39,465 bases of DNA from Desulforegula conservatrix Mb1Pa (GTDB taxonomy: Bacteria > Desulfobacterota > Desulfobacteria > Desulfobacterales > Desulforegulaceae). The stretch is from NCBI RefSeq assembly GCF_000426225.1, contig NZ_AUEY01000037.1:1-39465 (forward strand), in the 5' to 3' direction. This document shows, in pieces, positions 1,807 through 35,175 of this stretch. The notes below the pieces were generated by a model. That model worked only from the letters and a program-made list of their open reading frames with translations. It was not told the origin of the DNA and made no database searches. The translations under genes and the position numbers were made by a program. Positions within the stretch are counted from its first letter, which is position 1, and every line of letters begins with the position of its first letter.

Positions 1807-2541
1807 TTATTCATCAGGCCATGAATTCATTTTTTCTTTTCTAAGTCTTTTTTTTGAATTCTTCCAGTCACCTTTTTCCCTTTTCTTGCTATTTCCCTCA
1901 ACCGGCTTCATTAAGAAACTTCCTGGATTAGTAATTTCGGCTTTTGGGGAGGGTTTTGGAGCATCTTTTTTTGTCTGGGTTCCTATTATTTTTTCAAGAG
2001 GAGGGCCAATGATGCAGGAAGCCGGTATATGTCTTGAAGCATAGAGATTCTCACCTATCCTGCTCAGATCAACACCTTTATCAGAAGCGATTGTGGTCGG
2101 GATTGTCAAAAGAACAGGGTGTCTGTCTTTTCTTTTTCCGATTCTTAAGGCCATGCTCTGGTCGGAAGATAGGGCTATATGGCTGTTGCCATGGTCAGGG
2201 TAAATCCCCTTTTCAAGGATATGACCATAAGTTCTTTTTTTGACTGCATAATAAAGGAGTTTTGGAATTGTATTCTCAAATTTTTCAATGCCGCTTCTAT
2301 CAATGGCTCTTATTCTGTCATCTGATGTTTCAAAAAGTGATTCGTTAGATGATATTAAAACTTCTCTAATATGAGAATCCCTTATGAATCTGTAACCATC
2401 TTCCTCGCTGATGGCCCTGGCAAGGTCAGTGATTTTAATAAAACCATCAATATCAAGTAAAATTCCGAATTCATCAGGCCTTTTGCCCAGAACATAAAAA
2501 AGGAACTTTTCAATCTGTTTAACATTTTTGGAATGATTCAT
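1807..2541 (-). CDS. Tpt1/KptA-like RNA 2'-phosphotransferase family protein (divergent)
   Basis: The first ~180 of 244 residues follow the Tpt1/KptA plan. There is a winged-helix-like N-terminal half with VLGKRPDEFGILLD and an ADP-ribosyltransferase-like C-terminal half with GHILEKGIYP, HIALSSDQSMALRIGKRK, HPVLLTI and YASRHIPASCI. Tpt1 enzymes move a 2'-phosphate from spliced RNA to NAD; the bacterial role is uncertain. The usual Arg-His pair of the first motif (VLRHxP) reads Gly-Lys here (residues 19-20), so normal catalysis is doubtful. Residues ~185-244 form a Lys/Arg-rich tail not typical of the family, perhaps for nucleic-acid binding. It is transcribed divergently from hemL, and both lie inside an inverted repeat pair. 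The family call is fairly sure; the activity is unknown. Confidence 0.7.
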   Translation of the reverse strand: MNHSKNVKQIEKFLFYVLGKRPDEFGILLDIDGFIKITDLARAISEEDGYRFIRDSHIREVLISSNESLFETSDDRIRAIDRSGIEKFENTIPKLLYYAVKKRTYGHILEKGIYPDHGNSHIALSSDQSMALRIGKRKDRHPVLLTIPTTIASDKGVDLSRIGENLYASRHIPASCIIGPPLEKIIGTQTKKDAPKPSPKAEITNPGSFLMKPVEGNSKKREKGDWKNSKKRLRKEKMNSWPDE

Positions 2542-2659: not shown

Positions 2660-3946
2660 ATGAAAACAGATGTTTCAAGAATATTATTTGATAAAGCCAG
2701 AAATCTGATTCCTGGTGGTGTAAACAGTCCTGTCAGGGCATGCAGATCAGTGGGCGCAGACCCTCTTTTCATATCAAAAGCTTCGGGCTCCAGAATTTTC
2801 GATGCTGATGGCAATTCATATATAGATTATGTCGGTTCATGGGGCCCCATGATTCTTGGTCATAATCATCCTGAAGTTGTTGATGCCATCCGAAATGCTC
2901 TTGAAAATGGAACCAGCTTTGGTGCTCCGTGTGAGTTTGAAGTGGAACTTGCATCCCTTGTTTCAGAAATTGTGCCTTCCCTTGAAATGGTGAGGATGGT
3001 TAATTCAGGGACCGAGGCAACAATGAGCGCCATCAGGCTTGCAAGGGCCTATACCGGAAGGGAGAGGGTTATCAAGTTTGATGGATGCTATCACGGTCAC
3101 GCAGATTCTTTTCTTGTTGAGGCTGGATCTGGGGTTGCCACATTGAATATCTCTGGAACTCCGGGCGTGCCTAAATGTCTTTCAGAGTTGACCATGTCTG
3201 TTTCCTATAATGATTCTGAATCGATCCAGAAACTAATGGAAACTGTTGGCAAAGAAGTAGCCTGCATAATAGTTGAGCCTGTGGCCGGCAATATGGGGCT
3301 GGTCAAGCCTTTGCCCGGATTTCTTGAATTCCTCAGAAAAATAACAGAGGAATATGGGGCGCTTCTAATTTTTGACGAGGTTATGACTGGATTTAGAGTG
3401 GCTCTTGGCGGCGCTCAGCAGCGTTATAACATAAAACCTGATTTAAGCTGTTTCGGTAAAATAATTGGAGGCGGCCTTCCAGTTGGTGCTTATGGTGGCA
3501 GACGCGACATAATGGGGATGATTGCGCCTGTTGGTTCTGTTTATCAGGCAGGAACCCTTTCCGGGAATCCTCTCGCCATGGCTGCTGGTGTAGCTACATT
3601 AAAACAGATCAAATCACCCGGATTTTATGAAAAACTTGAGAAGACCACATCTTCTCTTGTTGATGGTCTCAAGGCAGTTGCAAAGGACGCTGGAATTCCG
3701 GTTTTTGCTGATTATGTCGGATCAATGTTCGGGATGTTCTTCACCGAAGGACCTGTAAACAGTTTTGCTGATGCCAAAAAATCAGATACAGATTTGTTTT
3801 CAAGATTTTACCGTGAAATGAGGGATAGCGGCATTTATTTAGCTCCTTCTCAATTTGAGGCAGGTTTTGTGTCTTCTGCTCATACAGAGGAAGATATTAA
3901 GCTAACTGTTGAAACGGCAAAAAAAGTGCTTGCCAGAATAATATAA
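2660..3946 (+). CDS. hemL: Glutamate-1-semialdehyde 2,1-aminomutase
   Basis: This cytosolic PLP enzyme converts glutamate-1-semialdehyde to 5-aminolevulinate, the last step of the C5 route to tetrapyrroles. The 428-residue length is normal. Visible motifs are LIPGGVNSPVRA near the N-terminus, NSGTEATMSAIRLAR for cofactor binding, LLIFDEVMTGFR, the PLP lysine K267 in CFGKIIGGGLPVGAYGG, and AGTLSGNPLAMAAG. The frame can also begin with TTG three bases earlier, but the ATG at 2660 sits 8 bases after AAAGG and is preferred. mpl follows after 20 bases, so the two are probably co-transcribed. Nothing is odd in the sequence, and the call is secure. Confidence 0.97.
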   Translation: MKTDVSRILFDKARNLIPGGVNSPVRACRSVGADPLFISKASGSRIFDADGNSYIDYVGSWGPMILGHNHPEVVDAIRNALENGTSFGAPCEFEVELASLVSEIVPSLEMVRMVNSGTEATMSAIRLARAYTGRERVIKFDGCYHGHADSFLVEAGSGVATLNISGTPGVPKCLSELTMSVSYNDSESIQKLMETVGKEVACIIVEPVAGNMGLVKPLPGFLEFLRKITEEYGALLIFDEVMTGFRVALGGAQQRYNIKPDLSCFGKIIGGGLPVGAYGGRRDIMGMIAPVGSVYQAGTLSGNPLAMAAGVATLKQIKSPGFYEKLEKTTSSLVDGLKAVAKDAGIPVFADYVGSMFGMFFTEGPVNSFADAKKSDTDLFSRFYREMRDSGIYLAPSQFEAGFVSSAHTEEDIKLTVETAKKVLARII

Positions 3947-5523: not shown

Positions 5524-5709
5524 TGCCTTCGGCGAGTCGCTTTTTAGAAAAAGCTCCGCAAAAACTTTTAGGTAATAAGACGGAGCATATCCAAATTTAG
5601 GGCATTTGCGGCTAATCATAATAAAAGCATAAAGTTTTTGAGGGGACTTAAGGGACTTTTTACAAAAAATTCCCCAAGATCCGGAATTACAAAAAGGTTT
5701 AGTATTTCG
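5524..5709 (-). repeat. Long intergenic repeat, copy B (~186 bp, inverted relative to copy A)
   Basis: Read on the minus strand it begins CGAAATACTAAACCTTTTTG and ends GCGACTCGCCGAAGGCA, the same borders as copy A at 1408-1592. Together the copies enclose the Tpt1-like gene, hemL and mpl. Confidence 0.85.
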
Positions 5710-20079: not shown

Positions 20080-20110
20080 AACTATTCAGCCTTCGCATTT
20101 TGGAAAAAAT

Positions 20111-20160
20111 GAAGAGTTTTTTGCGGAGCTTTTTTACAAAAAAGCGACCCGCCGGAGGCA
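20111..20160 (+). repeat. Dispersed core repeat copy upstream of argD
   Basis: The copy contains AGTTTTTTGCGGAGC, TTTTTTACAAAAAAGCGACC and CGCCGGAGGCA. It is nearly identical to 22810-22856 and lies 35 bases before the argD start. It is in frame with argD, so automatic callers would extend the protein through it. Confidence 0.85.
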
Positions 20161-21422: not shown

Positions 21423-22337
21423 TTGAAAAAGGATCTTTTAAAACTGATTGATCTTACGGAAGAAGATTTCGGGCTGTTCTTTGACAGGGCGCTTGAGCTT
21501 AAAAGAAGGTATAAAAAAGGCATAATAGACAGACCCATGATAGGCAAGACAATGGGCATGATCTTTGACAAGCCTTCGACACGAACCAGGATTTCATTTG
21601 AAGCAGGTTTTGCTCAGCTGGGCGGAACTCCTATTTTTCTTAACACCGCCGACACCCAGATGGGCAGAAGCGAGCCTATCAAGGACACCGCAAGGGTAAT
21701 GTCCAGATATCTTGATGCAATAGTCATAAGGACATTTTCCCAGGCCCTTATCGAGGAATTTGCAAAAGAGGCTTCAATACCGGTTGTTAACGCACTCAGC
21801 GACGATTACCATCCATGCCAGATTTTGAGTGATCTTCTGACTGTTATCGAATGCAAGGGCGGATGCAAAGGGCTTAAATACGCATGGGTAGGTGATGGCA
21901 ATAATGTCGCACACTCATGGATTAATGCTGCGGCTGTTCTTGGGCTTGATCTTGTACTTGCATGTCCTGAGGGCTATTTCCCGAACAAGACCATACTTGA
22001 CAGGGCTCTTTCCACAGGCAAAGGCAGTATCAGGATAGTAACTGATCCCAAAGAAGCGGTAAGAGATGCAGATGTAATATATACGGATGTCTGGGCAAGC
22101 ATGGGAATGGAAAAGGAACAGGAAAAACGCCTTAAGGCTTTTGCCGGATATCTTGTGGACAAGAAGCTTGTGGATCTTGCCAAAAAAGATGCGATTGTCA
22201 TGCATTGCCTTCCTGCCCACAGAGGCGAGGAAATTTCAGATGAAGTAATGGAGGGCCCTAACTCAGTGCTCTGGGATCAGGCTGAAAACAAGATGCATAT
22301 GCACAAGGCTATTATGGATGTCCTGATAAATAGGTAA
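21423..22337 (+). CDS. argF: Ornithine carbamoyltransferase
   Basis: ArgF makes citrulline from ornithine and carbamoyl phosphate. The protein has 304 residues with the carbamoyl-phosphate site DKPSTRTRISFEAGF, HPCQILSDLL, the ornithine-side motif DVWASMGME and MHCLPAHRGEEI. Two TTG codons are candidate starts: 21402, and 21423 which follows AAAGGTGA at a good distance and gives the normal N-terminus MKKDLLKLIDLT; the second is chosen. No in-frame ATG is available near the start. The last 24 codons are repeated downstream as part of a tandem duplication. The start lies 37 bases after argD, likely the same transcript. Confidence 0.96.
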   Translation: MKKDLLKLIDLTEEDFGLFFDRALELKRRYKKGIIDRPMIGKTMGMIFDKPSTRTRISFEAGFAQLGGTPIFLNTADTQMGRSEPIKDTARVMSRYLDAIVIRTFSQALIEEFAKEASIPVVNALSDDYHPCQILSDLLTVIECKGGCKGLKYAWVGDGNNVAHSWINAAAVLGLDLVLACPEGYFPNKTILDRALSTGKGSIRIVTDPKEAVRDADVIYTDVWASMGMEKEQEKRLKAFAGYLVDKKLVDLAKKDAIVMHCLPAHRGEEISDEVMEGPNSVLWDQAENKMHMHKAIMDVLINR

Positions 22338-22515
22338 AAACGTGGGGGATTTTTGAAAAAATTTCCCCTACCCCCTTAAACTTTCGTGTTTAGAGACGAT
22401 GATCCTTGAAATTTCTGAGGATCAAAAAAATGAGTTAATTTGCAAAATTATCAAAAACCCGACGCTTTTCAGCTATTTGTGTTTTTTTGATACTTTTGTA
22501 AGGTATTCAAAACAT

Positions 22516-22560
22516 GAAGTTTTTTGCGGAGCTTTTTTTCAAAAAAGCGACTCGCCGGAG
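22516..22560 (+). repeat. Dispersed core repeat, end of tandem unit 1
   Basis: GAAGTTTTTTGCGGAGC, T8, C, A6, GCGACTCGCCGGAG. The junction to tandem unit 2 falls within its last bases. Confidence 0.85.
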
Positions 22561-22631
22561 TGCTCTGGGATCAGGCTGAAAACAAGATGCATATGCATAA
22601 GGCTATTATGGATGTGCTGATAAATAGGTAA
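22561..22631 (+). pseudogene. Duplicated remnant of the argF 3' end
   Basis: A copy of the last 24 codons of argF including the TAG/TAA region (encoding the tail VLWDQAENKMHMHKAIMDVL) sits 290 bases downstream of the real gene end. Only two bases differ within the codons (CAC to CAT and GTC to GTG) and both are synonymous. It has no start signal in frame and is part of the tandem duplication. Confidence 0.85.
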
Positions 22632-22809
22632 AAAACGTGGGGGATTTTTGAAAAAATTCCCTATACCCCCTTAAACTTTCGTGTTTAGAGGCGATGATCC
22701 TTGAAACTACTTAGGATCAAAAAAATGAGTTAATTTCCAAAATCATCAAAAACTCGACGCTTTTCAGCTGTTTGTGTTTTTTGATACTTTTGTGAGTTAT
22801 TCAAAACAT

Positions 22810-22856
22810 GAAGTTTTTTGCGGAGCTTTTTTACAAAAAAGCGACCCGCCGGAGGC
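22810..22856 (+). repeat. Dispersed core repeat, end of tandem unit 2
   Basis: GAAGTTTTTTGCGGAGC, T6, AC, A6, GCGACCCGCCGGAGGCA; nearly identical to the copy upstream of argD. Confidence 0.87.
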
Positions 22857-27353: not shown

Positions 27354-27428
<75 letters not shown>

Positions 27429-27441
27429 ATTTCTTTTATGA

Positions 27442-27515
27442 GGCGGCATGGCCAAGCGGTAAGGCAGAGGCCTGCAAAGCCTTTATCTCCGGTTCAAATC
27501 CGGATGCCGCCTCCA
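27442..27515 (+). tRNA. tRNA-Cys (anticodon GCA)
   Basis: Acceptor stem GGCGGCA pairs with TGCCGCC, then discriminator T (usual U73 of tRNA-Cys) and encoded CCA. The anticodon loop CTGCAAA gives GCA. It lies 13 bases after the first tRNA-Gly. Confidence 0.96.
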
Positions 27516-27588
27516 ATAAAAGAAATATGATTTCGGGCCTGAAAAACGGCTACAATATCCAGCTTTAAACTCATGGTGTAATGATAGA

Positions 27589-27663
<75 letters not shown>

Positions 27664-35000: not shown

Positions 35001-35135
35001 AATAATGCCTATCCTTGTATGGTCAATTTCCCATCAAAAAAACAGAATTTTTGATTTTAGAATTTAGATTGATGATTGATGCAACCAGACCAATAGTTCA
35101 AAATTCATCGATCAAAAATCGAAAATCATGAACCT

Positions 35136-35175
35136 ACGGCGGGCCGCTTTTTGAAAAAAGCTCCGCAAAACCTTT
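35136..35175 (-). repeat. Dispersed core repeat, minus-strand copy near the alkyltransferase
   Basis: Read on the minus strand: AAAGGTTTTGCGGAGC, T6, C, A5, GCGGCCCGCCGTAGG. It lies 20 bases beyond the stop of the alkyltransferase gene. Confidence 0.8.

Follow-up and report, generated by a model that had tools for sequence, protein, structure and literature searches.

A Tpt1/KptA-like gene with a basic tail

The window, i.e., the whole stretch of DNA analysed here, comprises 39,465 nucleotides of contig NZ_AUEY01000037.1 from Desulforegula conservatrix Mb1Pa. An open reading frame on the minus strand (1807..2541) encodes a protein of 244 amino acids, and the plus strand across the same span is stop-rich. 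The features considered are listed below; "degenerate rows" are aligned relatives from the order and from a phylum sample that have lost the Tpt1 active site.

1807..2541, minus strand: CDS of the tailed Tpt1/KptA-like protein, a putative pseudoenzyme of 244 aa; stop codon at 1807-1809
2278..2541, minus strand: N-terminal winged-helix (RNA) lobe, residues 1-88, as delimited on the structure model; lobe naming after excerpts of PMC6333775
2476..2493, minus strand: VLGKRP in place of VLRHxP, residues 17-22; catalytic R18 and H19 gone
1993..2277, minus strand: C-terminal ART-fold (NAD) lobe, residues 89-183, as delimited on the structure model
2242..2250, minus strand: YAV, residues 98-100, where the enzymes have HGT, the motif gripping the NAD adenosine ribose
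2131..2139, minus strand: GKR, residues 135-137, in which the alignment places the retained arch arginine (CthTpt1 R139)
1810..1992, minus strand: basic tail, residues 184-244, modelled with low confidence; predicted helix at 228-237
1915..1926, minus strand: PGSF tail motif, residues 206-209; G207 in 143/161 degenerate rows
1861..1866, minus strand: WK tail motif, residues 226-227; W in 131/161 and K in 134/161 degenerate rows
2660..3946, plus strand: presumed hemL-like neighbour, divergently transcribed and outside the proposed mechanism; ATG at 2660, start in the ORF list TTG at 2657

Membership of the Tpt1/KptA family, as proposed by the first-pass annotation, is by descent and not by chance. 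The Pfam profile PF01885 matches the protein with 45.6 bits (E 1e-11, gathering cut-off 26), Tpt1 chains in the PDB match its sequence with a best E of 9.7e-19, and the best fold match of its model has a Z of 16.2. The gene is the sole PF01885 match in the host genome, which is 96.41% complete. The tail, put at about 60 residues on first reading, comprises 61 residues, with 14 Lys and 3 Arg versus 3 Asp and 5 Glu (net charge +9); the 183-residue core has a net charge of +1.

The upstream neighbour, which we take to be hemL-like, is divergent and the downstream neighbour, presumably a LysM-type gene, is convergent, so the tailed Tpt1 gene stands alone. A hemL relative is close by in 44 of 80 pattern-picked loci (described below), and what we assume to be the rpsF-rplI-dnaB group comes next in a subset of loci. 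One tally of neighbours left out seven of the 80 loci, where the ORF caller had missed the target gene; the cluster counts that follow cover all 180 loci. The widest conserved neighbour cluster reaches 13 of 180 loci and 8 of 35 family labels, and none of the clusters points to RNA work; given that spread, we rejected the neighbourhood as a clue to role.

The catalytic and NAD-contacting residues are replaced

According to excerpts of PMC6333775, the essential tetrad of CthTpt1 consists of R18, H19, R68, and R121; within the HGT motif, H101 and T103 contact the NAD adenosine ribose, and R121, R139, and R140 surround the NAD phosphates. In our alignment, the tetrad reads G, K, L, and N in the window protein, HGT reads Y-A-V, and K66 and H125 are likewise absent. 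The Arg-His pair is thus gone, as the first-pass annotation had seen, but its further statement that the NAD-binding half is retained does not hold: H101, T103, and R121 are lost too, and the six checked positions (the tetrad plus H101 and T103) all differ from CthTpt1. Matched residues are K11, R77, and R139. Of the arch pair over the NAD phosphates, R139 is present and R140 has become Lys; a His is found at the R140 position in the active enzyme RslTpt1, and a H/T double mutant of the same enzyme yielded 4% product and proved lethal to yeast (both from excerpts of PMC6333775). Two options had been raised for the protein, a changed reaction or a binding-only role. Because H101, T103, and R121 are lost, and given the behaviour of the RslTpt1 mutant, the binding-only role comes out stronger and the changed reaction weaker.

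The window protein thus shares the two-lobe fold, sequence kinship, and R77 and R139 with Tpt1/KptA enzymes (CthTpt1, 6E3A; TkoKptA, 9LD4; E. coli KptA), but unlike these it is without the tetrad, K66, HGT, and H125 and carries the added tail. Judged by its sequence, it is a Tpt1 by descent that, as an enzyme, fails the defining residues tested. The best NCBIfam equivalog score of 75.7 bits is below the cut-offs of 231-279, a weak criterion, since the five intact tailed proteins that were scanned also fail (178-194) and E. coli KptA passes with 427. The label "RNA 2'-phosphotransferase" calls for caution here, as Pfam and PDB matches are strong despite the missing catalytic residues.

Loss of the site is general among relatives in the order

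An order-wide protein search found relatives in 81 of 96 genomes, the host's own included, and in 61 of 70 among the better genomes. The residue counts rest on all 81 relatives, which were chosen by protein search and not by motif. R18 is kept in none of them (one gap), H19 in 5, R68 in 1, R121 in 7, H101 in 1, and T103 in 1; 66 rows have none of the six residues, 15 have one, and no row has two or more. R139 is retained in 80 of the 81, and the K11 position is Lys in 66 of them and in 59 of 97 other rows (14 gaps). Position 18 is G in 65, E in 8, A in 4, another residue in 3, and a gap in one, and position 19 is R in 66, H in 5, K in 2, another residue in 7, and a gap in one; the intact relatives of the degenerate tailed lineage retain RH at both. 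The suspected variant lineage therefore exists, as degenerate tailed forms across the order and the phylum sample, but it is not a Gly-Lys clade: positions 18 and 19 vary inside the larger degenerate tailed lineage. A column-by-column check of the 161 degenerate rows for an Arg-His relocated within the pocket turned up no His column, and no Arg column missing from intact forms, at 70% or more.

In genome contigs, the window protein as lone query confirmed none of 105 pattern matches, and an alignment of 29 relatives as query confirmed 165 of 218, the best 80 of the 165 being used; of 21 pattern matches in viral contigs, none was confirmed. The 80 relatives were chosen by the pattern Y[IVM]L[GE][RHY]xP[DY]EF, which fixes position 18 as Gly or Glu, so that they are left out of the R18 count; they are labelled mostly as Desulfobacterales, families of that order, or Deltaproteobacteria. 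Recounting on the 81 motif-unbiased rows left the outcome unchanged relative to the pattern-picked set. Most relatives come from metagenome-assembled genomes, among others; lone residues in lone rows may err, and the pattern spans many rows. One row of the order (G036) is partial and has gaps. One genome (G083) has a second match of 68 residues, and at one locus (L027) there is an in-frame stop close to the end of the gene, within the tail.

Short Tpt1s served as a yardstick. In a motif-unbiased set of 16 (9 from plasmids or phages, 6 second copies, and one from family f144), all six key residues are present in every protein; the nine plasmid and phage proteins that were read are 176-214 aa long. 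A larger phage set was gathered by a pattern ending in LRH, which presets R18 and H19, and was therefore used for the other four positions: R68, R121, and H101 are present in 37 of 37 and T103 in 36 of 37 (37 of 40 loci, three near-duplicates by score being omitted).

These counts bear on the reading that the tailed protein is a normal, active Tpt1 whose key residues are misaligned or relocated. The fold is intact and those 15 rows of the order do retain one residue, as that reading would have it, but retention of two or more is never seen, while short Tpt1s retain all. In addition, the tailed form coexists in six of the 96 genomes with a further, short Tpt1 in which all six residues are present. 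We consider a normal Tpt1 very improbable. The six genomes concerned (L270-L275) are natural short/tailed pairs for comparing function.

Intact tailed relatives and the loss of the active site

The whole-genome search for tailed forms covered, among bacteria, the host phylum, in a sample of which 118 of 345 genomes have a match. We fetched 99 places outside the order, of which 97 tailed rows remained; f131_G226 (partial, and also absent from the trees) and f144_G287 (short, intact, and untailed) were dropped. Fifteen of the 97 have all six residues, one has five, one has four, and 80 have two or fewer; in one row (f145_G336), the chosen start lies past position 19, and the residues there were scored as lost. 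The 15 intact rows fall in 5 of 31 families (f76, f82, f109, f110, and f146). These proteins have lineage, similar length, and tail in common with the window protein, but differ in having all six catalytic and NAD-binding residues, and are presumably active. Records covering 80% of an intact tailed query numbered 0 of 93 for phages and 2 of 57 for plasmids, one of the two (H22) ending at residue 201.

Trees were computed without the trait columns, a careful one with 57 rows picked from 128. Tailed rows separate from 18 short Tpt1s with support of 100/100 in the tree with 39 tailed rows and of 100 in that with 110. The intact tailed forms lie near the base of the trees, with a weakly supported branching order, and the plain reading would be that the ancestor was tailed and active and that loss came later. 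Among the f82 proteins, the degenerate members G234 (1/6 residues), G283 (4/6), and G346 (5/6) have 5 to 7 neighbour clusters in common with intact members, which argues that the site was lost in place there. Placing all lost rows in one clade gives an AU p of 0.049, or 0.179 without the three f82 rows, so at least two losses are likely, short of proven. The fewest changes required are 3 on the tree with 110 tailed rows and 4 on that with 39. Two or more losses, one of them in place, thus appear likely. The degenerate G227 of f109 groups with its family in the careful tree (96/96) and apart from it in the quick tree.

Three f82 loci (L197, L189, and L199) have tetrads reading VHKK, QHRH, and LHRR, partway to loss, in a gene neighbourhood that they share with intact members. 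Family f100 (L259-L264) contains strongly diverged tailed members, and the arch arginine R139 is gone in 6 of 7 rows of this family.

The degenerate forms are under purifying selection

The tailed copies are under purifying selection. Whole-gene Nei-Gojobori omega is 0.075-0.475 in 91 of 103 pairs, with values of up to 0.55 for the core; omega could not be computed in the other 12 (3 identical, 6 with G206 because of a frame overrun, and 3 saturated). In genome pairs where both proteins have none of the six residues, omega is 0.10-0.31 (e.g., 0.11 for G274/G415 and 0.10 for G100/G171). The degenerate protein, with at least two NAD-binding residues gone, is yet kept under selection.

Across the 161 degenerate rows, G32 is present in 155, G115 in 156, and P180 in 157; R77 is Arg in 146 and Lys in 9, and R139 is present in 148. 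The net charge of their tails is +11 at the median (n = 159), and W[KR] is found close to the tail end in 131 of 159. Of the 15 intact forms, 10 carry PGS in the tail and 9 carry W[KR].

A functionless gene decaying to loss would fit the longer branches among degenerate rows and the lack of a match in 15 of the order's 96 genomes. However, the low omega of the pairs without any of the six residues, together with conserved fold positions and tail motifs that are conserved between families, is unlike a gene in decay, and we find this explanation scarcely credible.

Predicted structure

The AlphaFold2 model of the window protein, built on an alignment of 81 sequences drawn from the pattern-picked set (Gly/Glu at position 18), has a mean pLDDT of 87 and a pTM of 0.73; the core is mostly above 95, and the tail, with one helix, is at 54-75. 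Tpt1 chains account for all of its 14 best fold matches (Z 14.9-16.2 over 159-176 residues). With both lobes taken together, the rmsd to these chains is 8.8-10.6 Å. By itself, the ART lobe fits the RslTpt1 NMR model with 2.4 Å over 88 residues, and the RNA lobe by itself resembles the N-terminal domain of human La (Z 8.4, rmsd 3.1 Å over 82 residues). A control model of a phage Tpt1 is within 1.8-2.5 Å of 15 chains, 7.6 Å from two open TkoKptA structures, and 11.0 Å from the RslTpt1 NMR model. The models thus weakly suggest that the closed NAD cleft predicted for the control is absent from the window protein; real Tpt1s are also seen open, and the models carry no estimate of inter-lobe error.

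The remaining NAD-site residues raise the alternative of a changed enzyme, which would still bind NAD or another nucleotide and carry out a new transfer via substitute residues. It draws on the arch arginine, R139, kept in nearly all rows of the order and most degenerate rows, on G115, which lies beside the adenine, and on a basic residue directly after the HGT position (Cth 104), which is Arg in 118 and Lys in 23 of the 161 degenerate rows. Yet in these rows no column of His, or of an Arg, Glu, or Asp missing from intact forms, reaches 70% as a substitute. H101 and T103 are gone, R139 itself is absent from most f100 proteins, and the open cleft of the window model, for what a model can tell, counts weakly in the same direction. 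A changed enzyme is in our judgement distinctly unlikely.

A putative RNA-binding pseudoenzyme

A non-catalytic RNA-binding protein is favoured by the combination of lost chemistry, selection, the La-like RNA lobe, and the conserved basic tail. We infer that the tailed Tpt1 has probably lost NAD-dependent removal of RNA 2'-phosphates, binds RNA, and is retained as a pseudoenzyme in that role. The winged-helix lobe would grip structured RNA, such as tRNA or rRNA, without turnover, helped by what is left of the basic face of the ART lobe (near R77, R133, and R139) and by the Lys/Arg-rich tail, including the WK helix; a partner might dock on the PGSF segment. As a first guess the ligand would be tRNA: according to excerpts of PMC9095486, a 2'-phosphate at tRNA position 47 can be removed by the KptA proteins of T. 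kodakarensis and E. coli and by yeast Tpt1. In Tpt1, R139 holds NAD phosphates; as this arginine is so widely kept among degenerate rows, a nucleotide or phosphate may still bind. Against RNA binding, the K11 position, which contacts RNA in CthTpt1, is Lys in only part of the rows, the core of the window protein is near-neutral, and no operon partner points to RNA. A tail of this charge would also be suited to DNA, membranes, or acidic proteins.

The tail also bears on a reading in which the protein is a scaffold or regulator whose PGSF and WK motifs contact another protein, with RNA not being the ligand. Two short conserved motifs (G207 and W226) in a tail modelled with low confidence would be expected of such a protein, and TASOR, a eukaryotic ART pseudoenzyme, directs complex assembly according to excerpts of PMC7532188. 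However, the strong tail charge and the La-like lobe favour nucleic acid first, and a nearby conserved partner gene is absent from the 180 loci, so we rate a protein scaffold as unlikely.

Among known systems, the RNA-binding pseudoenzyme that we favour would resemble ZAP/PARP13, RCD1, and TASOR, eukaryotic ART pseudoenzymes that likewise have a degenerate NAD site and are retained for non-catalytic work. These are larger proteins and belong to the PARP branch of the ART fold. For the TASOR domain, weak binding of ssRNA is reported (excerpts of PMC7532188). The likeness of the N-terminal lobe to La/LARP winged-helix domains is structural only, with the middling Z given above. Among the matches listed from open-licence PMC papers, no title or abstract describes the degenerate tailed form. 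To our knowledge, bacterial Tpt1 has no universal substrate.

In this lineage, selection maintains the protein although its active site is being lost, in place in at least one family, which suggests that the kept trait may be binding and not chemistry. The paired intact and degenerate orthologues offer a route to the RNA target. The tailed factor could be a reader of RNA 2'-phosphates or ADP-ribosylated RNA ends, or a tRNA or ribosome factor. On a broader scale, it is possible, although on balance doubtful, that in a large part of the phylum an RNA 2'-phosphate eraser was turned into a core non-catalytic RNA-binding factor, with the enzyme being lost more than once, the tail being kept, and the intact relatives representing the prior step.

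Other features of the window

Downstream of the tailed Tpt1 gene, an intergenic palindrome-like sequence, GGATTCCGGCCTGCGCCGGAATGAC, is visible by eye at 1727-1752. A dispersed repeat around GCGGAGCTTTTTT...AAAAAAGCGACCCGCCGGAG is present at 20080-20157, 22483-22560, 22777-22854, 5526-5568, and 35133-35175, and a weaker likeness to it, again by eye, lies near 1552-1598, just downstream of the tailed Tpt1 gene. Positions 22265-22854 contain two tandem copies, 85-95% alike, of a repeat unit of approximately 294 bases. Three consecutive tRNA genes, Gly(GCC)-Cys(GCA)-Gly(GCC), occupy 27354-27663, the two Gly genes being 94% alike over 82 bases.
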